DNA of 64,000 bases from Streptomyces rubiginosohelvolus (GTDB lineage Bacteria > Actinomycetota > Actinomycetes > Streptomycetales > Streptomycetaceae), in contig NZ_BMTW01000001.1 in assembly GCF_014649875.1 (NCBI RefSeq), positions 930,001 through 994,000 on the forward strand. The letters are read 5' to 3'. Both the position numbers and the translations under genes were made by a program. The notes beneath the pieces are model-generated. The model was not told the origin of the DNA and ran no database searches. It worked only from the letters and a program-made list of their open reading frames with translations. Positions 6,065-60,188 of this stretch are shown piece by piece. Within the stretch, counting starts at the first letter, position 1. The number at the start of each line of letters is the position of its first letter.

Positions 6065-8311
6065 ATGCCAAAGAAGCGCTCGGGCGGCGGTCTCACCACG
6101 ACTCAGCAGGCCGCCAAGTTCGTCGGTGTCGCCGCCCTCTCCGGAGCTGTCCTGGCAGGCATCGCGCTGCCCGCGGCCGGAGCGCTGGGGCTCGCCGCCA
6201 AGGGGACGGTCGAAGGGTTCGACGAGATCCCCTCCAACCTCAAGACACCGCCGCTCAGTCAGCGGACCACGATCCAGGACCGCGACGGCGGCACCATCGC
6301 CACGGTGTACTCCCGCGACCGCACGGTCGTCCCGCTCAAGGACATCTCGCCGCACATGCAGGCCGCGATCATCGCGATCGAGGACTCCCGCTTCTACGAG
6401 CACGGCGCGGTCGACCTCAAGGGCATCCTGCGCGCGATGAACCGCAACGTACAGGCGGGCGGGGCGGCGCAGGGCGCGTCGACCCTCACCCAGCAGTACG
6501 TGAAGAACGTCTTCGTCGAGGAGGCGGGCGACGACCCGGAGAAGGTCGCCGAGGCCACGCAGCAGACGCTCGGCCGCAAGGTCCGCGAGCTGAAGTACGC
6601 GATCCAGGTCGAGGAGGAGCTCGGCAAGAAGAAGATCCTGGAGAACTACCTCAACATCACGTTCTTCGGGCAGCAGGCGTACGGCATCGAGGCCGCGTCC
6701 CAGCGCTACTTCTCCAAGCACGCCAAGGACCTCAAGGTGGAGGAGGCCGCGCTGCTCGCCGGCATCGTCCAGTCGCCGAGCCGCTACGACCCGGTCAACG
6801 ACACGGAGGAAGCGACCAAGCGCCGCAACACCGTGCTGACGCGGATGGCCGCGGTCAAGAGCATCACGCAGGCCGAGGCCGACAAGGCCATGGAGACGCC
6901 CATCAAGCTGAAGGTGTCCCGGCCGAAGAACGGCTGCATCACCGCCGTCAGCGGCTCCGGCTTCTTCTGCGACTACGTACGCAAGACGATCCTCACCGAC
7001 CCCGCCTTCGGCAAGACCGACGAGGAGCGGGCCAAGCTCTGGAACCTCGGCGGTCTGACCATCCGGACCACGCTCGACCCGCGCGCCCAGAAGGCCGCCA
7101 ACGAGGCCGCCACCGCGAGGGTCAACAAGGACGACAAGTTCGCGGCGTCCGTGGTGCAGGTCCAGCCGGGCAGCGGGAAGATCCTCTCGATGGGCCAGTC
7201 CCGCCCGTACGGCCTGGACCAGAAGCAGAACGAGACCGTCCTGAACCTCGCCGTCAGCAACAAGATGGGCGGCAGCACCTACGGCTTCCAGGTCGGCTCC
7301 ACGTTCAAGCCGTTCACCGCGGCGGCGGCGCTGGAGAAGGGCATCAGCCCGGCGACGTCGTTCTCCTCGGACTGGAAGATGACGCTCCAGGAGCGGGACT
7401 TCCGCAACTGCTCCGGCTCCCCCGCCGGGTACGCGCCCTGGCAGCTCCAGAACGAGCTGGAGTCCGAGAAGGGCACCTGGGACATGACGAGCGCGCTCGG
7501 CAAGTCCATCAACACCTACTTCGCGATGCTGGAGCAGAAGGCCGGCCTCTGCGAGACCGTCGAGATGGCCAAGAAGGTCGGCTACGAGCGCGGTGACGGC
7601 AAGAAGATCGGGGAGTACCCCTCGATCACCCTCGGCGGTGAGGTGAGCACGCCGCTCTCCATGGCCGGCGCGTACGCCGCCTTCGCCAACCGCGGCACGT
7701 ACTGCACGCCGATCGCCATCGAGTCCATCAAGGACCCGCAGGGCAAGAAGCTCGACGTGCCGAAGACGTCCTGCTCGCGCGCGATGAGCGAGCGGACCGC
7801 GGACACGATCAACCAGATGCTCAAGGGCGTCGTCGAGGACGGCACCGGTACGCAGGCCGGACTCAGCGACCGGGACAACGCGGGCAAGACCGGTACGACC
7901 AACGACCGCAAGGACGCGTGGTTCGTCGGGTACACGCCGAACCTGTCCACCGCGGTGTGGGTCGGTGACGACGTCGGCGAGAAGAGCTCGATGTTCAACG
8001 TCACCATCGGCGGCCAGTACTACGACAAGGTCTGCGGTGGCTGTCTGCCCGGCCCGATCTGGCGCATCGCGATGACCGGAGCGCTGGACGCGTCCGAGAC
8101 CCCCGGGTTCAACACCGTCCCCGTGCCTCGCGGCAAGGAGAAGGACGACAAGGAGAAGGGCGACCGCGACCGGGGCCGTGACCGCGACCGCGGTGACGAC
8201 GACGACAAGCCCGGCGACGACGGCAACCGGTTCCCCGGGATCGAGCTCCCGGAGGGCGTGATCGGCGGACCGGGCGGCGGCGGCCGGGGCGGCGGCAACG
8301 AGGGGCCCTGA
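6065..8311 (+). CDS. Class A penicillin-binding protein (bifunctional transglycosylase/transpeptidase)
   Basis: A 748-residue cell-wall synthase. A membrane anchor lies at about residues 13-42, the GT51 domain has the catalytic glutamate E106 in EDSRFYEH and GASTLTQQ near 137, and the transpeptidase domain has S412-TF-K415, the SIN motif at 481 and KTG at 608-610. The C-terminal 60 residues are a charged Asp/Lys/Arg tract ending in a Gly-rich tail. The ATG at 6065 is seven bases after TAGGCT, so a leaderless mRNA is expected; a longer upstream open frame has no support. It polymerises lipid II and cross-links peptidoglycan outside the membrane. Confidence 0.95.
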   Translation: MPKKRSGGGLTTTQQAAKFVGVAALSGAVLAGIALPAAGALGLAAKGTVEGFDEIPSNLKTPPLSQRTTIQDRDGGTIATVYSRDRTVVPLKDISPHMQAAIIAIEDSRFYEHGAVDLKGILRAMNRNVQAGGAAQGASTLTQQYVKNVFVEEAGDDPEKVAEATQQTLGRKVRELKYAIQVEEELGKKKILENYLNITFFGQQAYGIEAASQRYFSKHAKDLKVEEAALLAGIVQSPSRYDPVNDTEEATKRRNTVLTRMAAVKSITQAEADKAMETPIKLKVSRPKNGCITAVSGSGFFCDYVRKTILTDPAFGKTDEERAKLWNLGGLTIRTTLDPRAQKAANEAATARVNKDDKFAASVVQVQPGSGKILSMGQSRPYGLDQKQNETVLNLAVSNKMGGSTYGFQVGSTFKPFTAAAALEKGISPATSFSSDWKMTLQERDFRNCSGSPAGYAPWQLQNELESEKGTWDMTSALGKSINTYFAMLEQKAGLCETVEMAKKVGYERGDGKKIGEYPSITLGGEVSTPLSMAGAYAAFANRGTYCTPIAIESIKDPQGKKLDVPKTSCSRAMSERTADTINQMLKGVVEDGTGTQAGLSDRDNAGKTGTTNDRKDAWFVGYTPNLSTAVWVGDDVGEKSSMFNVTIGGQYYDKVCGGCLPGPIWRIAMTGALDASETPGFNTVPVPRGKEKDDKEKGDRDRGRDRDRGDDDDKPGDDGNRFPGIELPEGVIGGPGGGGRGGGNEGP

Positions 8312-23944: not shown

Positions 23945-24603
23945 GCCTGGGCCTCCATCACCACACGCAGCGCCGCGATGCCCCGCGAACCGTACGCCTT
24001 CACCGAGCCCAGCGAGACGCCCAGCGTCTCGGCGACCTGGGCCTCCGTCATGTCCGCGAAGTAGCGCAGCACCAGCACCTCGCGCTGGCGTCGCTGGAGC
24101 CCCTTCATGGCCTTGATCAGCGCGTCCCGCTCCAGCTGGTCGTACGCGCCCTCCTCCGCGCTCGCCATGTCCGGCATCGGCTTGGAGAGCAGCTTCAGCC
24201 CGAGGATGCGGCGGCGCAGCGCCGAGCGCGAGAGGTTGACGACCGTCTGCCGGAGGTAGGCGAGGGTCTTCTCGGGCTCACGGACCCGGTTGCGCGCGGA
24301 GTGCACCCGGATGAACGCCTCCTGCACCACGTCCTCGCAGGACGCGGTGTCGTCCAGCAGCAGGGCCGCGAGGCCGAGCAGGGAGCGGTAGTGGGCGCGA
24401 TAGGTCTCGGTGAGATGGTCGACCGTCGTTCCTGCTGCCACCGTCTCCTCAGCACCCCCGCGCTGCGCGGGCAGCGAGGCCGGGCGCGCAGCGGGCATGG
24501 GCGCGATCACCGGCATGCCGCCGGGCGCGCGGGGCCGCCGGAACGGGCGCACCGAAGCGCCTCGCAACGGGCCCACCACTGTGATGTCGAGAACCTCTGC
24601 CAC
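23941..24603 (-). CDS. ECF-type RNA polymerase sigma factor
   Basis: A 220-residue sigma-70 family protein with an N-terminal extension of about 60 residues, region 2 (HYRSLLGLAALLLDDTASCEDVVQEAFIRV, residues 70-100) and region 4 (QREVLVLRYFADMTEAQVAETLGVSLGSVKAY). A GTG start at 24603 is taken; a shorter start inside the extension is possible because the first 60 residues are not conserved sigma sequence. It is coupled to the membrane protein downstream, which may be its regulator. The stimulus is unknown. Confidence 0.9.
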   Translation of the reverse strand: MAEVLDITVVGPLRGASVRPFRRPRAPGGMPVIAPMPAARPASLPAQRGGAEETVAAGTTVDHLTETYRAHYRSLLGLAALLLDDTASCEDVVQEAFIRVHSARNRVREPEKTLAYLRQTVVNLSRSALRRRILGLKLLSKPMPDMASAEEGAYDQLERDALIKAMKGLQRRQREVLVLRYFADMTEAQVAETLGVSLGSVKAYGSRGIAALRVVMEAQA

Positions 24604-36101: not shown

Positions 36102-37886
36102 ATGGACAAGCTCGGGCCCGACGACCCGCACCGCATCGGCGCGTACCGGCTCCTCGGCCGCCTGGGCGAAGGCGGCATGGGCCAGGTCTTCCTCGCCCGC
36201 TCCGACCGCGGCCGCACCGTCGCCCTCAAGCTCGTCCGCCGCGAGCTCGCCGAACGCCCCGAGTTCCGCGCCCGCTTCCGCCAGGAAGTGCACGCCGCGC
36301 ACCGGGTCGGCGGCGCGTGGACCGCCCCGGTGCTGGACTCCGACACCGAGGCCCCCGTCCCCTGGGTCGCCACCGGTTACGTCGCCGGGCCCTCCCTCCA
36401 GCGCATCGTCTCGGGCCGCCCCGGCGCCCCGGTCACGGCCTCGGGGGCGTACGGGCCCCTGCCGGCCCGTTCCGTACGGTTCCTGGGGTCCGGGCTCGCC
36501 CACGCCCTCCAGCACATCCACGGGGCCGGGCTCATCCACCGGGACCTGAAGCCCTCCAACGTCCTGATGACCATCGACGGGCCCCGGGTCATCGACTTCG
36601 GCATCGCCCGCGCCCTGGAGTCCGTGGCCGACGGCGATCCGACCCGCACCGGGGTCCTCGTCGGCTCGCCCGGATTCATGGCCCCGGAGCAGGTGCGCGG
36701 CGAGCGCGTGACCACCGCGTGCGACGTGTTCTGCCTCGGGTCCGTCCTCGCGTACGCCGCATCGGGCCGGCTGCCGTTCGGCACGCCGGAGAGCGGCGGG
36801 GTCCATGCCCTGATGTTCCGGATCGCCCAGGAGGACCCGGACCTGACCGGGGTCCCGGAGGAGCTGGCCGGCGTCGTCCGGGACTGTCTGGCGAAGGACC
36901 CGGCGGCCCGCCCCGGTACCGACGAGATCCTGGCCCGCCTGGGCGAGGCGGACGCGGACGAGCCCTGGCTGCCCGCCACCCTCCTCGCCCAACTCGGCCG
37001 CCAAGCGGTGGGGTTGCTCGACGCGGAGGACCCGGAGGAGCCCGAGGCGCCGGGCAGGCCCGGGAACCCGCGGGGGTCGGAGAGCCCGTGGGGATCGGAA
37101 AGCCCGTGGGGATCGGAAAGCCCGCGGGGGTCGGAGAGCCCGCAGGCGCCGGAGACGCCCCGCACGCCGGTGAGCCCCCAAGGGCCGGCCGGGCCGGCCG
37201 TGCCGCCCTCGGGCCCGCGCACCCTCGCAAGCCCCCCATGGCCCCCGACGCCCGCACAACCCACCCAGCTCACCCAGCCCGCCTACCCCTCCGCCCCCAT
37301 ACCCCCGGCCCACTTCGCGCCCACGCCTCCCCCGCCCGCCCGGGAACGCCGCTCCGCCGGGGCCACCGTCGCCCTCATAGCCGTCGCCGTCGTCGTGGCG
37401 ATAGGAGCGGGCGGATCGGTGTACGCCTTCATGAAGGGCGACGGGCCGGGCACGACCGCCTCCCCCGGGCCCTCGGGCTCCGCCGACACGGGCAGCGGCG
37501 GCCAGGGGCAGCAGGGCAGCGGCCAAGGGGACGTCCCCGAGGGATTCCTCGGCACCTGGTCCGGCTCCATACCCGGCGAACAGGGCTCCTCCACACGGAC
37601 GTTGACCATCCGGCAGGGCGACGTCGGCGACCAGGTCCTCGCCCTCACCGCCGAGGGGCCCCTCGCCTCCGGGTCCACGTACCACTGCGAGTTCAGCGCC
37701 CCGCTCGCCGACAGCCCCGCCGGGGACGGCCCGGTCCGCATCGGCCCCTCCACGGTGTCCTCCGGGAACCCGGCCGCCTCCTGCACGCCCGGCAAGCCCA
37801 CCGAGCTGACCCTGCTCCCGGACGGCACCCTCCGCCGCACCACGACCGGCACGGGTGAGAGCCTGATCTACACCAAGTCCGGCTGA
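36102..37886 (+). CDS. Membrane-anchored Ser/Thr protein kinase
   Basis: A 594-residue PASTA-less kinase of the PknB type. The kinase domain is at residues 10-280: GRLGEGGMGQVFLA, catalytic lysine in VALKLVRRE, HRDLKPSNVL, DFGIAR and the GSPGFMAPEQ loop. A low-complexity linker at about 320-430 contains four GSESP units and many prolines, a transmembrane helix is at about 423-442 (VALIAVAVVVAIGAG), and the last 130 residues are an extracellular beta-rich domain with two cysteines. It senses an unknown signal. Its 3' end overlaps the convergent MFS gene by 19 bases. Confidence 0.93.
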   Translation: MDKLGPDDPHRIGAYRLLGRLGEGGMGQVFLARSDRGRTVALKLVRRELAERPEFRARFRQEVHAAHRVGGAWTAPVLDSDTEAPVPWVATGYVAGPSLQRIVSGRPGAPVTASGAYGPLPARSVRFLGSGLAHALQHIHGAGLIHRDLKPSNVLMTIDGPRVIDFGIARALESVADGDPTRTGVLVGSPGFMAPEQVRGERVTTACDVFCLGSVLAYAASGRLPFGTPESGGVHALMFRIAQEDPDLTGVPEELAGVVRDCLAKDPAARPGTDEILARLGEADADEPWLPATLLAQLGRQAVGLLDAEDPEEPEAPGRPGNPRGSESPWGSESPWGSESPRGSESPQAPETPRTPVSPQGPAGPAVPPSGPRTLASPPWPPTPAQPTQLTQPAYPSAPIPPAHFAPTPPPPARERRSAGATVALIAVAVVVAIGAGGSVYAFMKGDGPGTTASPGPSGSADTGSGGQGQQGSGQGDVPEGFLGTWSGSIPGEQGSSTRTLTIRQGDVGDQVLALTAEGPLASGSTYHCEFSAPLADSPAGDGPVRIGPSTVSSGNPAASCTPGKPTELTLLPDGTLRRTTTGTGESLIYTKSG

Positions 37887-39130
37887 GAGGCGGGCACTTC
37901 GGACACCGGAGCACCCGGCCGCCGCCGCAGCGCCCCCGTGATCAGCGCCGCCCCGCCCAGCAGCACGAGCACCACCACCATCGCGTTCCGCAGCCCCACA
38001 TGGTCGGCCAGGAAGCCCAGTGACGGCGGGCCGACCAGGAACGCCGCATAGCCCGCCGTAGACACCGCCGCGACGCGGGCCGAGGCGTCCCCCGGCCCAG
38101 CGCCCTCCCCCGCCGCCGAGATCGTGACCGGGAAGCCCAGCGAGGCGCCCAGGCCCCACAGCACCACCGCCGCCCCGGCGAGCAGCGCACTGTCGGAGAA
38201 GATCACCAGCGCCACGCCGACCGCCGCCACCACGGCACTGGCCCGGACCACGGCCGCCGGGCTGTACCGCACCAGCAGCGGCCCGCCCGTGAACCGGCCC
38301 GTCGTCATCGCCACCGCGAACAGCATGAACGTCAGCGAACCGGCCGTCGCCCCCGTCCCGTGGCCGTCCACCATCAGCAGCGGCAGCCAGTCGTTGGCGG
38401 AGCCCTCCGCGAAGGCCATGGCCAGCACGATCAGGCCGATCAGCACCAGCCGCCGGTCCCGCCAGACGGCCAGCTGCCCGCGCACTCCCCTGGCCCGATC
38501 CCCGCCACGAGACTCCGCGTCACCGGTGACCGCCGACTCGCGCCCCGTTCCCGCCGGCACCGCCCGCACGGTCCACACCCCGGCCGCCGCGACGGCCAGC
38601 GCGACCGCCGCCAGGTGCCAGCCCACCGGGAAGCGGACCGCCGTCAGACCCATCCCGAGCAGCGCGCCGACCACGGTCCCCAGGCTGAAGCAGCCGTGCA
38701 GCACCGGCAGGACCGGGCGGCCCACGGTCCGTTCGACGGCGGCGCCCTCGATGTTGAACGCCACCTCCGCCAGGCCCATCCCGGCCCCGAACAGCGCGAG
38801 TCCGCCGAACACCCCGCCGGACACCTCCAGCGCCGCTCCCCCGGCGATCACCAGCAGCCCGGCCACCAGCAGCACCGCCCCGACCGTGATCACCAGCCGC
38901 CCGCCGTGCCTGCGCACCAGCCCGCCGGAGGCCAGCACCCCCGCCATCGAGCCGATCGAGAGCCCGAACAGCACCAGACCCATCGCGCCCGTGGACACCT
39001 CCAGCGCGTCCCGGACGGCCGGGGTCCTGGCCACCCAGGACGCCATGCTCACCCCCGTGGCGAGCATGAAGAGAAAGAGCGCCGCGCGCCAGCGGCGGGT
39101 GACGGCCTCCACGACCTGCGGGTTCTTCAT
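37868..39130 (-). CDS. MFS transporter (12-TM)
   Basis: A 420-residue protein with about twelve hydrophobic segments and a central charged loop (residues about 200-225). WVARTPAVRDALEVSTGAMG and GSMAGVLASGGLVRRHGGRLV are the usual A-motif regions. The substrate is unknown. It starts from an ATG preceded by TACGCT eight bases upstream, within twin palindromes that likely bind the divergent TetR repressor, so it is probably a regulated efflux pump. Confidence 0.88.
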   Translation of the reverse strand: MKNPQVVEAVTRRWRAALFLFMLATGVSMASWVARTPAVRDALEVSTGAMGLVLFGLSIGSMAGVLASGGLVRRHGGRLVITVGAVLLVAGLLVIAGGAALEVSGGVFGGLALFGAGMGLAEVAFNIEGAAVERTVGRPVLPVLHGCFSLGTVVGALLGMGLTAVRFPVGWHLAAVALAVAAAGVWTVRAVPAGTGRESAVTGDAESRGGDRARGVRGQLAVWRDRRLVLIGLIVLAMAFAEGSANDWLPLLMVDGHGTGATAGSLTFMLFAVAMTTGRFTGGPLLVRYSPAAVVRASAVVAAVGVALVIFSDSALLAGAAVVLWGLGASLGFPVTISAAGEGAGPGDASARVAAVSTAGYAAFLVGPPSLGFLADHVGLRNAMVVVLVLLGGAALITGALRRRPGAPVSEVPASQPDLV

Positions 39131-39166: not shown

Positions 39167-39258
39167 ACTCCCGTCCGCGTTCTATGCTGCGCGGAGAATC
39201 CAGCAGACCGACACCGAGACCGAGGCCCGACCCCGAGGCCGACCCGAGGAGGCACCGC

Positions 39259-39807
39259 GTGGCGACCGGGCGCACCGACCCCGAGCGGCGGGACCGCATC
39301 ATCGACGCGGCACTCGACCTCATCGTCGACGAGGGCGTCGCGGGCGTCTCGCACCGCAAGGTCGCCGCCCGCGCGGGCGTGCCGCTGGGCTCGATGACGT
39401 ACCACTTCTCCGGCATGGACGAGCTGCTGCACGAGGCGTTCACCCGGTTCTCCGGGACGATCGTCGCCGTCTTCGAGGAGCGCCTCGGCGCGGCGACCAC
39501 CCCCGACGAGGCCCGCGAGGCCGTCGCCGATCTCGTCCATCACCTCTCCGGCGGCAACCAGCGCGAGCTGATCCTCACCCACGAGCTCTACACCCTCGCC
39601 GCCCGCCGGCCCGCCTACCGCGAGCTCACCCGCACCTGGATGGGGCGCAGCCGCCGCGCCCTGGAATGGCACTTCGACCCGGCCACCGCCCGCCAGCTCG
39701 ACGCGCTCATCGAGGGCCTGTCCATCCACCGCGCCCTGGAGACCGAGCCCCACGAACGCGCCCTCACGGTCGAGGCGGTCGCCCGCATCACCGCGCCGCG
39801 CTCGTAG
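39259..39807 (+). CDS. TetR/AcrR family repressor
   Basis: A 182-residue regulator with an N-terminal HTH (RIIDAALDLIVDEGVAGVSHRKVAARAGVPLGSMTYHF) and a helical ligand-binding domain. The GTG at 39259 was chosen because GAGGAGG lies six bases upstream; a longer frame from 39184 reaches back towards the operator region. It is divergent from the MFS gene and probably represses both through the GTACG palindromes. Confidence 0.9.
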   Translation: MATGRTDPERRDRIIDAALDLIVDEGVAGVSHRKVAARAGVPLGSMTYHFSGMDELLHEAFTRFSGTIVAVFEERLGAATTPDEAREAVADLVHHLSGGNQRELILTHELYTLAARRPAYRELTRTWMGRSRRALEWHFDPATARQLDALIEGLSIHRALETEPHERALTVEAVARITAPRS

Positions 39808-39840: not shown

Positions 39841-40176
39841 TCACGTCACGCCCGTTACGGTGACGATGATCCGGAACTCCCTGCCCGGGTACCCGGTGGC
39901 CAGGTGCCGGCTCACCGCCTCACGGACGGCGCGGGTGGTGTCGAGGGTCCGTCTGTCGGAGCGGCAGATCAGGCGGATCTCCACGGTGGTGCGGGTATCC
40001 CCGCTGGGTGCCGAGACGGTGATGCCGGGGGTGTCGTCGCCCGGGCGGGCCAGGGGTGAGGTGGCACGCAGGGCGCGCAGGCGGCTTCGGAGGCCGGGCG
40101 CGAGGAACGCCACTCCGGGGACCTCCCGGACCACGTGGGCCAGTTCGCTGTGCATGGTGTCGGCGGAGGCACTCAT
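39841..40176 (-). CDS. Asp23/Gls24-like small protein
   Basis: A 111-residue protein (MSASADTMHSELAHVVREVPGVAFLAPGL...) with a core like the Asp23/Gls24 alkaline-shock family: VREVPGV, then EIRLICRSDRRTLDTTRAVREAVSRHLA and a final strand IIVTVTG. It has no membrane segment. Its ATG shares one base with the stop of the upstream ZAS-Asp23 gene (TGATG). It is third in an operon sigma, ZAS-Asp23, Asp23-like. Confidence 0.75.
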   Translation of the reverse strand: MSASADTMHSELAHVVREVPGVAFLAPGLRSRLRALRATSPLARPGDDTPGITVSAPSGDTRTTVEIRLICRSDRRTLDTTRAVREAVSRHLATGYPGREFRIIVTVTGVT

Positions 40177-40781
40177 CAGGGGGCGCTCCCTTCCTGCGCT
40201 GATCGCGGTGCGGCTTCGTCTTCGGAGACCAGGTCGGTGATGCGGACGTTGATCTCGCCGAGGTGAAGTCCCAGGCGCTCGTGGGCGGTTACGTCGACCC
40301 GGTCGCGGATCTGCTGGGCCAGGGCCTGTACGTCGGGTGTCGTGAGCGGCACGTGCACGGACAGGTCGACGTCCACGGGCGTACCACCGAGGCGGCACGA
40401 TCCCGCCCTGACCCCGGGCACCTCCTCGGCGGCCCGGCGCAGGGCACGAGCGGCCACGTTCTCCATGATCCGCAGGTCCTCGTCCGTCTCGCCCAGCGGC
40501 AGGGGCCGCCCGGGGCGCAGTTCGAGGCGGACCACGTCCATCACCCGGTCGATGAAGGAGGCCGCGTCGACGGGCTGCTGCGCGGGGTCGGAGTCCAGGG
40601 CGCGCACCTGGGACTCCAGGCGTTCCAGGTCGGCGACCGCGAGCCGGCAGTGGGCGCACTGCGTGGTGTGGTCGTCGTGGACGCCCTCCTCCCAGTCGGC
40701 CCAGACCTGGGAGAGGAGGCGGCCGCAGGGAAGCGTCTCGTCGTCGGGGTCGGTGCGGGTCTCGGGTGGCAGGTTGGTCAT
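40176..40781 (-). CDS. ZAS-type anti-sigma motif fused to an Asp23-like domain
   Basis: A 201-residue protein. Residues of about 15-60 carry the zinc anti-sigma motif H-x3-C-x2-C as HTTQCAHC after a short CGRLLSQVWADWEEG helix, and residues of about 95-190 resemble Asp23/Gls24 (ARALRRAAEEVPGVRAGSCRLGG, DVDLSVHVPLTTPDVQALAQQIRD, HLGEINVRITDLV). The ATG overlaps the sigma stop (ATGA). I infer a soluble anti-sigma factor whose activity is set through an Asp23-type domain. There is no membrane helix. Confidence 0.72.
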   Translation of the reverse strand: MTNLPPETRTDPDDETLPCGRLLSQVWADWEEGVHDDHTTQCAHCRLAVADLERLESQVRALDSDPAQQPVDAASFIDRVMDVVRLELRPGRPLPLGETDEDLRIMENVAARALRRAAEEVPGVRAGSCRLGGTPVDVDLSVHVPLTTPDVQALAQQIRDRVDVTAHERLGLHLGEINVRITDLVSEDEAAPRSAQEGSAP

Positions 40782-41365
40782 TGCCAGGCCCCCAGGGAGT
40801 GAGTCAGTTGGCGGCGAGCTCTGAAAACACGGGCGCGTACGGCTTGTTCACTGATGCCGACGGTCTTCGCGATGAAGGCGTACGACCGGCCGTCGAGCGT
40901 GCGCAGCGTCCAGCAGATGCGTTGTTCGGGCGAGAGCGTGGACAGCGCCTCCTGTACGTCGTGGAGCGCCGCGCGCCCCTCGGTGATGCGGTCCGGCGCG
41001 GTGGTGTACGCCGGGGCCGGCAGGTCGGGCAGTTCGTTGAGCGGTGCCTGCGGGCGCCGCGCGCGCAGGATGTTGAGGCACCGATTGGTGACGATGCGGT
41101 ACATCCAGGTCCCGAAGGAGGATCTGCCCTGGAACTCCGGCAGGCTGCGCCAGGCGCCGACGAAGGCCTCCTGGACGGCGTCCTCGGCCTCGGTCCGGTC
41201 GCCGAGCAGACGGGTGGCCAGACGAAGGAGGGAGGGGGCGTGCCGACGCACCAGTACGGCGAAGGCGTCCTCGTCACCTTCGGCCGCGCGCTCCGTCATC
41301 AGGGTGTCGTCGGACCGTCCGCCCTCGACGTCGGGCGGCTCGCCCGGCGGGGGATTCCCCGTCAC
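40778..41365 (-). CDS. ECF sigma factor of the Asp23 divergon
   Basis: A 195-residue ECF sigma factor. Region 2 is AFAVLVRRHAPSLLRLATRLLG, then DRTEAEDAVQEAFVGAWRSL, and region 4 is LSPEQRICWTLRTLDGRSYAFIAKTVGISEQAVRARVFRA-like. I chose the GTG at 41365 because GGAGGAG is seven bases upstream; an ATG six codons earlier is possible. It is coupled to the ZAS-Asp23 gene. Its regulon may include the divergent Asp23 operon. Confidence 0.9.
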   Translation of the reverse strand: MTGNPPPGEPPDVEGGRSDDTLMTERAAEGDEDAFAVLVRRHAPSLLRLATRLLGDRTEAEDAVQEAFVGAWRSLPEFQGRSSFGTWMYRIVTNRCLNILRARRPQAPLNELPDLPAPAYTTAPDRITEGRAALHDVQEALSTLSPEQRICWTLRTLDGRSYAFIAKTVGISEQAVRARVFRARRQLTHSLGAWQ

Positions 41366-41670
41366 AGTCTCGCTCCTCCTCATGCGGTACGCGCCCGCTG
41401 GTCGTCCGGTCGTGGTGGTCTCGCCCGTTCTGACACGGGAGCCGGTGCGCTGTGACGCGTACCCGCGAGATCAACCGGGAGCGCACGATTTTCGGGGGTA
41501 GGTGCAGGCGGCTCGCCGGGATCCGAAAAATTCGTGCGTCTTCGTGCGTCACAGAGTCCGGGGAGCGGAGTCGAACGTGATGAAGGACCGCACAGAACAC
41601 AGAACAGAGAACACAGCACACATCACGCAGCGACGCACGCCCAGCGCTGACGACATCGAAGGAGCACCTG
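41366..41670. promoter_or_regulatory. Divergent promoter region of the two Asp23 operons
   Basis: 305 bases without a gene. Near 41530-41550 TTCGTGCGTC occurs twice in a row, and near 41590-41625 an ACAGA/ACACA-rich stretch reduces GC. GAAGGAG precedes the Asp23 GTG at 41671. No certain -10 or -35 box could be placed. Confidence 0.4.
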
Positions 41671-42210
41671 GTGGCTACCGACACGAAGACGACCCCCTCC
41701 ACCGACAGCGTGACGAACAGCGGCAAGGCGGCCCGCTTCGAGCAGCCGTCCGGCACGGGCCGGTCGGCCGGGACGAACCTGTCGAACGGGGCTACCGGGG
41801 CGGAGGCTCCGGCCGGCGACCGCGGCCGCACCTCCATCGCCGACGTCGTGGTGGTCAAGATCGCCGGCATGGCGGCGCGTGAGATCCCCGGCGTCCACGA
41901 CATGGGCGGCGGCCTGTCGCGCACCATCGGCGCCGTCCGCGACCGGGTGCCCGGCGGCCGTCCCAACGTGGGCCGGGGAGTAAAGGTCGAGGTCGGTGAG
42001 CGGCAGACCGCGATCGACCTGGAACTCGTCGTGGAGTACGGGGTGTCCATCAAGGACCTGGCCTCCGACGTCCGGGAGAACGTGATCCTCGCCGTGGAAC
42101 GGATCACCGGCCTGGAGGTCGTCGAGGTCAACATCGCCGTCGACGACGTCCGCCTCCCCGACGACGAGGACGCCTCCGCGTCCGCCGGTGACCAGAGCCG
42201 GGTCGCGTAA
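41671..42210 (+). CDS. Asp23/Gls24 family envelope stress protein
   Basis: A 179-residue protein. A disordered 50-residue N-terminus leads to the family core: IADVVVVKIAGMAAREIPGVHDMGGGLSR, then GVKVEVGERQTAIDLELVVEYGVSIKDLA, VRENVILAVERITGLEVVEVNIAVDDV. In Firmicutes Asp23 binds the membrane through AmaP and protects the envelope at alkaline pH. GAAGGAG precedes the GTG by six bases. It is the first of four genes on this strand, divergent from the ECF sigma factor. Confidence 0.9.
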   Translation: MATDTKTTPSTDSVTNSGKAARFEQPSGTGRSAGTNLSNGATGAEAPAGDRGRTSIADVVVVKIAGMAAREIPGVHDMGGGLSRTIGAVRDRVPGGRPNVGRGVKVEVGERQTAIDLELVVEYGVSIKDLASDVRENVILAVERITGLEVVEVNIAVDDVRLPDDEDASASAGDQSRVA

Positions 42211-42281
42211 CCCCTGACCACCACCGGAAGCCGGAAGAGCGGGCGGGCATCCGTACGCCCCGAGACGAAGAGGAGGGGCCT

Positions 42282-42464
42282 GTGAACGGCCGGTCCATGG
42301 GTCTGTTGGTAGGAGTCGCGCTCGGCTTCGCCGCCTACTTCGGCGGGTTCGCCGCGTTCCTGCTCGTCGGCTCTCTCGGGGCGGTGGGCTGGGGGGTGGG
42401 GGCCTGGCTGGACCGGGAAGGGGCCGCGCATCTGCGTGACCTGTTCGACCGGGAACGGCGGTGA
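42282..42464 (+). CDS. Small membrane protein (DUF2273-like)
   Basis: A 60-residue protein with two short hydrophobic stretches (GLLVGVALGFAAYFGGFAAF and LLVGSLGAVGWGVGAWLD) and a charged C-terminus. Small DUF2273 membrane proteins lie next to Asp23 in Firmicutes, and the position here fits. GAGGAGGGG precedes the GTG. It overlaps the next gene by four bases (GTGA). Confidence 0.78.
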   Translation: MNGRSMGLLVGVALGFAAYFGGFAAFLLVGSLGAVGWGVGAWLDREGAAHLRDLFDRERR

Positions 42465-43459
42465 TCCCCGCCGCCGCGCGGGGCACCACCACCGTTTCCG
42501 CGCGGGCCGTCGCCCGGATCGCCCAGCAGGCCGCCACCGAGACCCCGAACGCGGTCGGCACGGTGCGCGGCACGGCGACCGTACGGGGGCAGCGCGCCGA
42601 GGTCTCCGTACGGCTCGGCCTGCCCTGGCCGGCCGACCTCGGCCGCCGGGCCGGAGAAGTGCAGCGGCACGTGGCTTCCCGTACCGGCGAGCTGACCGGG
42701 CTGTCCGTGCGCGTGGCGCGACTCCGGGTCATCCGGCTGCAACGCCCCACGGGGGGCACGGTCGTGTTCGAAAAGACCACCGCTCCGTCCGCCCCAGGGC
42801 GTCGTGTTCCCCGGCGCTGGTGGTCCGCGCGTCCCACGCCCGTCGTGGTGGCGGCCCTCCTGGGCGCGGCGGCTGCGGGGCTCCTGACCGCCGACATGGC
42901 CCTGGTCCACCTCTTCGGCAACGCACCGGCGGCGTGGCGGACCGGCCTCGTCGACCGGCTCGCCGACACGAGCCCGGCCGCCGGTTCGGTGACGGTCGCG
43001 GCGGCCGCCCTGGCCGTGGCCGGTCTCTGGCTGCTCCTCCTGGCCTGCACGCCGGGGCTGCGCAAGCGCTATGTGGTCGCGGGTTTCGGCGCGGGGCGGT
43101 CCATCGCGCTCGACCGGGCGGCCGTCGCCTCCGAGGTCCGCGATCGCGTCCTCGACACGGACGGCGTCGACTCCGTACGCGTCAGGGTCGGCCGACGCCG
43201 GGTCCGCGTCCGGGCCGACCTCGCCTTCGGCGACCGGGCCGCCGCCCGCGAACAGGCGGGTGCCGCCGCGCGGGAGGCCCTCGCCGACTGCCGGCTGAAC
43301 CGGCCGTTGCGGGTGGGGCTGCGTCTGCGTACGACGAGCACCTGGGACCCCACACCCCCTGCCCCCGAGCCTGCGTCGGCCGCAGGAACCGTCGGAGAAA
43401 CCGCCGGAGAAGCAGCCGGAGGACCCGCCGGAGAAGCAGAGCGTAAGGAGAGCCCGTGA
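42461..43459 (+). CDS. Membrane protein with two Asp23-like flanks (DUF6286-type)
   Basis: A 332-residue protein. Residues 1-95 resemble an Asp23-like domain (SARAVARIAQQAATETPNAV...), two transmembrane helices are near 122-142 and 170-193, and residues 205-295 are a second beta-alpha domain (SIALDRAAVASEVRDRVLDTDGVDSVRVRVGRRRVRVRADL-like). The C-terminal 35 residues are disordered. I recall the DUF6286 name for the C-terminal part. It probably anchors the Asp23 complex. Confidence 0.75.
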   Translation: MIPAAARGTTTVSARAVARIAQQAATETPNAVGTVRGTATVRGQRAEVSVRLGLPWPADLGRRAGEVQRHVASRTGELTGLSVRVARLRVIRLQRPTGGTVVFEKTTAPSAPGRRVPRRWWSARPTPVVVAALLGAAAAGLLTADMALVHLFGNAPAAWRTGLVDRLADTSPAAGSVTVAAAALAVAGLWLLLLACTPGLRKRYVVAGFGAGRSIALDRAAVASEVRDRVLDTDGVDSVRVRVGRRRVRVRADLAFGDRAAAREQAGAAAREALADCRLNRPLRVGLRLRTTSTWDPTPPAPEPASAAGTVGETAGEAAGGPAGEAERKESP

Positions 43460-44046
43460 CGTCCCGGAGCGGAGCAAGCGGAGTGAACAGGACGCTCATC
43501 GCCCTGGCCGGAATCGCGCTCCTGGCCGCGGGGCTCTGGCTCCTCGGTGCGACCCGTGCGGTCGCGGACCACCTGCCCGCCTGGTGGCCCGCTCCCCCGG
43601 CCGACGGCGTCCTCCTCGACCGGGAAGGGCTGGCCTCGCTGCGCGGGGAGGGCTGGTGGGCCCCTGCCGTGCTGGCCGCCGGGACGGTCATCACCCTCCT
43701 GTGCCTGGCCTGGGCCGTGACCCGGACGCCGTTGCGCGGCCTCCGCCCGACCGGTCCGCTGTCCACCGCCCGTACCGAACTCAGGCTCACCGCCCTGGAA
43801 GACGCGGTGTGCGAGGACGCGCGCCGCATCGAGGGCGTCGCGCGGGCCCGCTGCCGTATCGCTCTGCGCCGTACGTCCGCCCACCTGGCCCTGCGGGTCT
43901 GGACCCTGCCCGGGTACGCCGCGAAGGACGTCCTCGACGGCCTCGGCACCGTGTCGGCGACCGTCGAGCACGCCCTGCACCCACGGGGCCTGGACACGCG
44001 CACCCGCGTCAGTGCGCAGCGCCACACGGCCCCGCACGTCCGCTGA
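43456..44046 (+). CDS. AmaP-like alkaline shock membrane anchor
   Basis: A 196-residue protein with transmembrane helices at about 12-33 (LIALAGIALLAAGLWLLG) and 70-90 (AVLAAGTVITLLCLAWAV), the layout of AmaP with an intervening loop, then a cytoplasmic domain (ALEDAVCEDARRIEGVARARCRIALRRTSAHLALRV). In Staphylococcus AmaP recruits Asp23 to the membrane. The GTG overlaps the preceding stop (GTGA), ending the four-gene operon. Confidence 0.8.
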   Translation: MTSRSGASGVNRTLIALAGIALLAAGLWLLGATRAVADHLPAWWPAPPADGVLLDREGLASLRGEGWWAPAVLAAGTVITLLCLAWAVTRTPLRGLRPTGPLSTARTELRLTALEDAVCEDARRIEGVARARCRIALRRTSAHLALRVWTLPGYAAKDVLDGLGTVSATVEHALHPRGLDTRTRVSAQRHTAPHVR

Positions 44047-59529: not shown

Positions 59530-60188
59530 CGCGATCCCCTCTCGCTCGGCAGGGCGACGATCGCCGCCCTGCCTCCTACCTCTCCGCGGCCCCGGCCGGG
59601 TTCCCGCGCTTCCCGCTCTTTCCGCTCTTCCTGCGCTTCCTGTGCGAGCCGTTCGCCCGTCAGCGCGCGCAGCCGCTTCCGGGCCCGGGAGAGCCGCGAG
59701 CGTACGGTGCCCACGGGCACGCCCAGCGCGTCCGCGGTCTGCTCGTAGTCGAGCCCGGCCCAGACACAGAGCGCCAACACCTCCCGCTCGGGCCCCCGGA
59801 GCCGGTCGAGCACCGCGCGTACGGCCGCCAGCTCCCGCTGGTGGTCCAGGCGCTCGGCGGACGCCTCGGCGAAGTCGGCGGTCTCCTCGGGCTTCGGCTG
59901 CCGGGCCAGGAAGGCGAGCCGGCGGCCGACCCCGCGGCGGTGGTTGCGCGCCCTGTTGGTCGCGATGCCCAGCAGCCAGGGCCCGAGCGGCGCGCCTTCG
60001 GCGCGGACCTGTTCGCGGGTGCGCCAGGCGGCGAGGAAGGTCTCCGACATCACGTCCTCGGCGGCCGAGAGGTCCCCGGTGAGACGGGCGGCGTGCTGGT
60101 GGACGGTGCGGGCGTACCGGTCGTAGAGGTCCCCGAAGGCCTCCCGGTCACCGGCCCGGATCCGCTCCCGTACTTCGTTGTGTTCCAC
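59526..60188 (-). CDS. ECF sigma factor
   Basis: A 220-residue sigma factor: region 2 (AFGDLYDRYARTVHQHAARLTGDLSAAEDVMSETFLAAW) and region 4 (LRGPEREVLALCVWAGLDYEQTADALGVPVGTVRSRLSRA). The GTG at 60188 is preceded by GAGAGG. It is coupled to the CU044_5270-type protein. The C-terminal 35 residues are disordered. Confidence 0.92.
   Translation of the reverse strand: MEHNEVRERIRAGDREAFGDLYDRYARTVHQHAARLTGDLSAAEDVMSETFLAAWRTREQVRAEGAPLGPWLLGIATNRARNHRRGVGRRLAFLARQPKPEETADFAEASAERLDHQRELAAVRAVLDRLRGPEREVLALCVWAGLDYEQTADALGVPVGTVRSRLSRARKRLRALTGERLAQEAQEERKEREAREPGRGRGEVGGRAAIVALPSERGSR

Follow-up and report, generated by a model that had tools for sequence, protein, structure and literature searches.

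We investigated a 64-kb stretch of the Streptomyces rubiginosohelvolus genome (7.55 Mb, Streptomyces-type; contig positions 930001-994000), hereafter the window, to whose positions all coordinates refer unless stated otherwise. Two divergent operons here bring together the genes for an extracytoplasmic function (ECF) sigma factor, a soluble anti-sigma candidate that probably joins a ZAS-type zinc domain to an Asp23-like domain (ZAS-Asp23), and a putative Asp23 scaffold of the membrane. The minus operon runs from 41383 to 39841 and the plus operon from 41671 to 44046; in each, neighbouring genes share a few bases (TGATG/ATGA), which is expected of translationally coupled operons. The genes and their parts, with library scores in brackets, are as follows:

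40778-41383, minus strand: ECF sigma factor, 201 amino acids, first in the minus operon (Pfam Sigma70_r2 1.4e-22, Sigma70_r4_2 1.3e-13)
40176-40781, minus strand: soluble anti-sigma candidate ZAS-Asp23, 201 amino acids, with an N-terminal ZAS-type and a C-terminal Asp23-like part (assigned by zinc motif, profile and structure model)
40647-40727, minus strand: zinc-ligand stretch of its ZAS domain, residues 19-45, C-x18-H-x3-C-x2-C
40212-40472, minus strand: its Asp23-like domain, residues 104-190, which includes the invariant C129
39841-40176, minus strand: small soluble Asp23-like protein, 111 amino acids, third in the minus operon (Pfam Asp23 0.2)
41671-42210, plus strand: Asp23 family protein (Pfam Asp23, PF03780, 1e-29; 103.6 bits, cut-off 28)
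42282-42464, plus strand: small membrane protein, DUF2273-like (Pfam DUF2273 0.31, sub-threshold; position conserved)
42461-43459, plus strand: DUF6286 protein with an N-terminal Asp23-like part, two predicted membrane segments (read from the sequence by eye) and a C-terminal DUF6286 domain (Pfam DUF6286 1.4e-21)
43456-44046, plus strand: AmaP-like membrane anchor with two transmembrane segments (NCBIfam anchor_AmaP 2.7e-6, below cut-off; position conserved)

The seven-gene divergon that a sequence-only reading had proposed at this place is thus confirmed gene for gene, and the same set recurs across Streptomyces. The sigma factor consists of regions 2 and 4 only, with neither region 1.1 nor region 3 found by Pfam, and its profile matches the structures of SigH, SigE and SigW. 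The anchor_AmaP model scores 27.2 bits with the last protein of the plus operon and 40.4 bits (2.4e-10) with the DUF6286 protein, both under the NCBIfam cut-off of 55, and the former is therefore called AmaP-like by its domain arrangement rather than filed as AmaP. Taken alone, ZAS-Asp23 scores below the Pfam cut-off (DUF6286 3.8e-7, Asp23 0.0019), and the Asp23 score of the small Asp23-like protein is by itself not significant. Because several of these single scores are weak, the assignment of the minor members leans on conservation.

Using ZAS-Asp23 as the query against 150 evenly drawn Streptomyces genomes, we found strong matches (E < 1e-15, a few of them partial) in 46; weaker matches, where examined, were a different, sigma-free protein. 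The divergent arrangement was nearly always present, both in the 40 loci retrieved with flanking sequence and in 80 named Streptomyces loci, among them those of S. globisporus, S. parvus, S. californicus, S. scabiei and S. coelicoflavus. The contig scan used a narrower alignment of the anti-sigma candidate, the first alignment being too diverse. With the anti-sigma candidate as the query, genes were recovered at the 80 named loci for the sigma factor (80), Asp23 (75), the DUF6286 protein (71), the small Asp23-like protein (68), the small membrane protein (55) and the AmaP-like anchor (50), and the sigma gene adjoined that for a soluble Asp23-family anti-sigma candidate in every one. Beyond Streptomyces, sigma and ZAS-Asp23 genes adjoin Asp23 genes in three actinobacterial relatives (L206, L207 and L210).

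Comparison of the intergenic regions revealed a bipartite ECF-type motif, GACAC-N14/15-YGTNACGC, usually with TTG ahead of it. In the window, it occurs between the two operons and faces both:

41432-41458 (contig 971432-971458), plus strand: ECF-type promoter motif directed at the Asp23 operon, GACAC-N14-TGTGACGC
41546-41572 (contig 971546-971572), minus strand: ECF-type promoter motif directed at the sigma operon, GACTC-N14-TGTGACGC

Across an initial set of 34 loci, there were 36 matches to this motif (14 toward Asp23 and 22 toward sigma), against 0.39 expected from Markov sequences. Because the pattern had been tuned on that set, it was applied unchanged to 45 other, independent loci, where it was directed toward Asp23 in 29 and toward sigma in 26, with approximately 0.5 matches expected for both directions together. 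Among the 27 loci with two sites, the -10 variant was identical on both sides in 23, compared to 9.5 expected by permutation, a concordance that is less independent than it appears given the related species among these loci. A stringent form of the motif had exactly two matches in the entire genome, both at the divergon; a strict search across the genus yielded 25 matches, mostly at divergons, and two relatives outside Streptomyces have this motif next to the sigma gene. A wider regulon was not found: the lenient form gave 22 matches in the genome versus 9 in a reversed control, and the stringent form gave the local two only. Because the motif faces both operons, the -10 variants agree and the stringent motif occurs only here, there is strong support for autoregulation and for control of the Asp23 operon, and very probably the locus encodes an autoregulated sigma/anti-sigma pair that also governs the facing genes. 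Inclusion of the plus-strand operon in the regulon of the sigma factor had been set beforehand as a check on the proposal, and at the sequence level it came out in favor, the same motif facing both operons.

In 26 of the 27 two-site loci, including the window (41432-41572), the predicted promoters point toward one another, so that the predicted leaders of the two operons overlap in antisense. In the window, this overlap would span about 75 bases, assuming a transcription start roughly six bases downstream of the -10 element.

An anti-sigma zinc motif fused to an Asp23-like domain, likewise proposed from the sequence alone, is upheld by the alignment, in which all 41 sequences share C19, H38, C42 and C45 (a ZAS-type H-x3-C-x2-C motif plus an upstream cysteine), and by the sub-threshold Asp23 and DUF6286 matches given above. 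The AlphaFold model of the full-length protein (mean predicted local distance difference test score, pLDDT, 85) comprises a helical N-terminal part and an alpha/beta Asp23-like domain at residues ~104-190. Modelled alone, the N-terminal part forms four helices, with H-x3-C-x2-C spanning helices 2 and 3. Using hhalign, we matched the profile of this N-terminal domain to zf-HC2 anti-sigma proteins of the same genome (probability 77, E 2e-5), whereas 20 column shuffles all gave E of at least 0.07; the matched member, L242, we take to resemble RsrA. Structure comparison with VIA-align gave weak matches, headed by two class I anti-sigma domains, those of RsiW in its zinc form (Z 3.0) and of MucA (Z 2.4). 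A PDB search with the N-terminal domain returned a weak RslA row (3hug, E 0.04-0.09), ranked under unrelated zinc fingers, and Foldseek with the N-terminal model returned nothing significant, an absence that is not evidence. No membrane segment is apparent in ZAS-Asp23. The ZAS assignment of the N-terminal domain is likely, and by analogy with these families ZAS-Asp23 would bind zinc and would bind and inhibit the sigma factor. The full-length model also matched the C-terminal domain of MamM (Z ~10), PrgK and EscJ; because only the Asp23-like half takes part in these matches, we attribute them to a small alpha/beta fold held in common and not to kinship.

A second Asp23 divergon, which lacks a sigma gene, is present in most Streptomyces, the genome under study among them. 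There, counterparts of the four plus-operon genes (for Asp23, the small membrane protein, the DUF6286 protein and the AmaP-like anchor) face the gene for a single soluble protein. This facing protein corresponds to the Asp23-like half of the anti-sigma candidate fused to the small Asp23-like protein, without the zinc domain. The copy in the genome under study is:

C10:196000-210000 (locus L008): sigma-free divergon, with Asp23 at 6267-6611; further examples are L082-L093, L213 and L214

The ECF motif was absent, in either direction, from 15 of 15 sigma-free divergon regions, and the notion that it is a property of all Asp23 divergons was rejected on this ground. In an Asp23 tree built with FastTree (146 columns, with one aberrant long branch, L071), the sigma-free divergons fall inside the sigma-linked Streptomyces group, with the sigma-linked relatives outside it (support 0.98 for the clade and a moderate 0.815 for the nesting). 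This nesting suggests that the sigma factor and the zinc domain were lost in the paralogous divergon. The survival of the Asp23-like half beside an Asp23 operon without sigma is the strongest indirect sign that it may work with the scaffold. The sigma-free divergon accordingly favours an interaction between the Asp23-like half of the anti-sigma candidate and the Asp23 scaffold, and it lends indirect support to the suggestion of the sequence-only reading that this domain could sense the Asp23 complex.

Near the start of the sigma-free divergon lies a conserved CAGCCTGCCGTAT-like stretch that may be a promoter element. The same genome also contains a further, more distant Asp23 gene (C11:198044-198379, L009) without adjoining DUF6286 or AmaP genes.

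As the best explanation of the whole locus, we propose a self-contained, autoregulated stress switch, to which we assign a probability of about 0.6. The ZAS domain of the soluble ZAS-Asp23 would keep the ECF sigma factor inactive in the cytosol. Once freed, the sigma factor would transcribe its own operon along with the facing Asp23/DUF2273-like/DUF6286/AmaP operon from the two matching promoters, with the result that more membrane-associated Asp23 scaffold would be made together with more of the sigma factor's own inhibitor. The assembly of such a scaffold by the products of the plus operon is suggested by their families. The most likely signal would be the state of the scaffold, on which the anti-sigma candidate would dock via its Asp23-like domain, along with the small Asp23-like protein, holding the sigma factor while the scaffold is intact and releasing it upon scaffold loss or disturbance. 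We put docking forward as the release signal only tentatively, at distinctly less than even odds, and both the signal and its sign are speculative. In S. aureus, Asp23 is attached to the membrane through AmaP and forms filaments, and the cell wall stress response sets in when either of the two is lost (PMC6954212); a regulator that raises scaffold output when the scaffold is missing would therefore be sensible. More doubtful still is the generalization that, in Actinobacteria, Asp23 scaffolds have more than a structural role: an anti-sigma factor with an Asp23-like domain would directly read how far an Asp23/AmaP/DUF6286 membrane scaffold is assembled, the scaffold thereby controlling its own synthesis, with the sigma factor and zinc domain later lost in the paralogue that most Streptomyces now have.

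Several observations weigh against this switch. Some clades lack the strict motif on one or both sides, and about 19% of unique loci have it on neither. A tblastn search showed no Asp23 gene within 5 kb in a few loci with sigma and ZAS-Asp23 genes, so the scaffold operon need not lie beside them. Two distant relatives (L208 and L209) have lost the zinc ligands while keeping the remainder. Finally, the N-terminal domain has no significant Pfam or PDB sequence match to an anti-sigma domain, and its structural matches are weak at the Z values given above.

Among the alternatives, a redox or zinc switch survives best, although we consider it unlikely. The ZAS domain would then be the sensor, as in RsrA, and oxidation or zinc loss at C19/H38/C42/C45 would free the sigma factor, perhaps with the involvement of C129 and of C157 in the sigma factor, while the Asp23-like domain would merely tether the pair near the envelope. 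The four potential ligands are complete and in an RsrA-type arrangement. C129 is invariant in 29 of 29 anti-sigma sequences and C157 in 27 of 27 sigma sequences, with no other cysteine at the C157 position among 30 region-4 sequences of the genome; both residues are kept in L206-L209 and both are absent in L210, and C129 is missing in the sigma-free paralogous proteins. A gene for a sulfite-oxidase-family molybdoenzyme, usually accompanied by a fasciclin lipoprotein gene, adjoins the sigma gene in 24 of 120 loci, which would also fit a redox signal. However, there is no redox gene at the window locus, and many ZAS anti-sigma factors bind zinc structurally without redox sensing. Moreover, the zinc ligands are gone from L208 and L209, which nevertheless retain the sigma factor, the anti-sigma candidate and C129; zinc is thus not required in every case. 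Because C129 and C157 are invariant and, in the relatives examined, present or absent together, a thiol-based signal is possible.

At the loci with a molybdoenzyme gene (L046:6432-8850, L049:7115-9335, L132-L136, L144-L146 and others), this gene mostly lies between sigma and Asp23, and 13 of the 24 have the ECF motif directed at it.

A homeostatic pair without a dedicated sensor, in which the level of the anti-sigma factor and proteolysis would by themselves keep sigma activity constant, the Asp23-like domain being a structural component of the scaffold, appears improbable. Such an arrangement would agree with the co-transcription of the anti-sigma candidate with sigma under the same predicted promoter and with the persistence of the Asp23-like part, without regulation, in the sigma-free paralogue, but ECF sigma factors with adjacent anti-sigma factors are usually responsive to signals. 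The idea that ZAS-Asp23 is not an anti-sigma factor, and instead is a positive partner or an unrelated zinc protein of the Asp23 complex, has little to recommend it: the weak structural match and the lack of a significant Pfam anti-sigma match would suit it, but the profile match to ZAS proteins, the RsrA-like L242 among them (against the shuffled controls), the overlapping gene position directly downstream of sigma, and the absence of the zinc domain exactly where sigma is absent all count against it.

Adjoining the locus is another divergent pair, which encodes a hydrophobic transporter-like protein (37868-39130, minus strand; labelled without a library search) and a TetR-type regulator (39184-39807, plus strand; Pfam). 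A Ser/Thr protein kinase gene lies at 36102-37886 (plus strand), with AfsK as the best NCBIfam row, below cut-off, and the window contains two further sigma region-4 matches (59670-59828 and 23968-24126, both on the minus strand).

Gram-positive bacteria are rich in Asp23-family proteins, and the autoregulated switch that we favour would link the Asp23 scaffold to a dedicated sigma/anti-sigma pair. The arrangement resembles SigR/RsrA of Streptomyces in that a soluble anti-sigma factor (here a candidate) with a Cys-His-Cys-Cys zinc arrangement is encoded beside an ECF sigma factor, whereas RsrA lacks an Asp23-like domain. The SigR regulon is large, in contrast to the confinement of the stringent motif to this locus. 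As in the asp23 operon of S. aureus, Asp23 and an AmaP-like anchor are encoded together, here in an operon that an alternative sigma factor very probably drives; the one that drives it in S. aureus is not of the ECF type but is SigB, a group III sigma factor with RsbW (PMC11350273 for the SigB promoter). The present locus differs in its dedicated local ECF sigma factor, its ZAS-Asp23 anti-sigma candidate and its DUF6286 protein. In S. venezuelae, the Asp23/Gls24 protein RS07310 is down-regulated on ethanol shock (PMC9769785), likewise a case of a Streptomyces Asp23 protein under envelope-type stress, although that paper draws no link to ECF sigma factors.

The closest likeness is to ECF286 (WP_003983642.1, Streptomyces rimosus) and ECF292 (Mycolicibacterium), which adjoin soluble Asp23-family proteins given there as predicted anti-sigma factors (PMC8999054, citing Casas-Pastor et al. 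2021). By description, these too are actinobacterial ECF sigma factors beside a soluble Asp23-family predicted anti-sigma factor, and because they are already listed as such, the locus is most likely a member of a catalogued but unstudied ECF class. The sequence-only reading had called an ECF sigma factor or a ZAS-Asp23 fusion with Asp23 and AmaP unknown in Firmicutes; in view of the catalogue entries, its claim is only partly right. The class appears never to have been characterised, our search of open-licence papers having found no characterisation of an ECF286/ECF292-type system. The description of ECF286 and ECF292 in PMC8999054 makes no mention of a zinc domain, a divergent Asp23/AmaP operon, a promoter motif or a sigma-free paralogue. 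For this uncharacterised class, the present analysis adds the promoter motif, the candidate regulon and the evolutionary comparison with the sigma-free version, and the small, predictable target set of two promoters makes it testable by a simple reporter what the Asp23 complex responds to.

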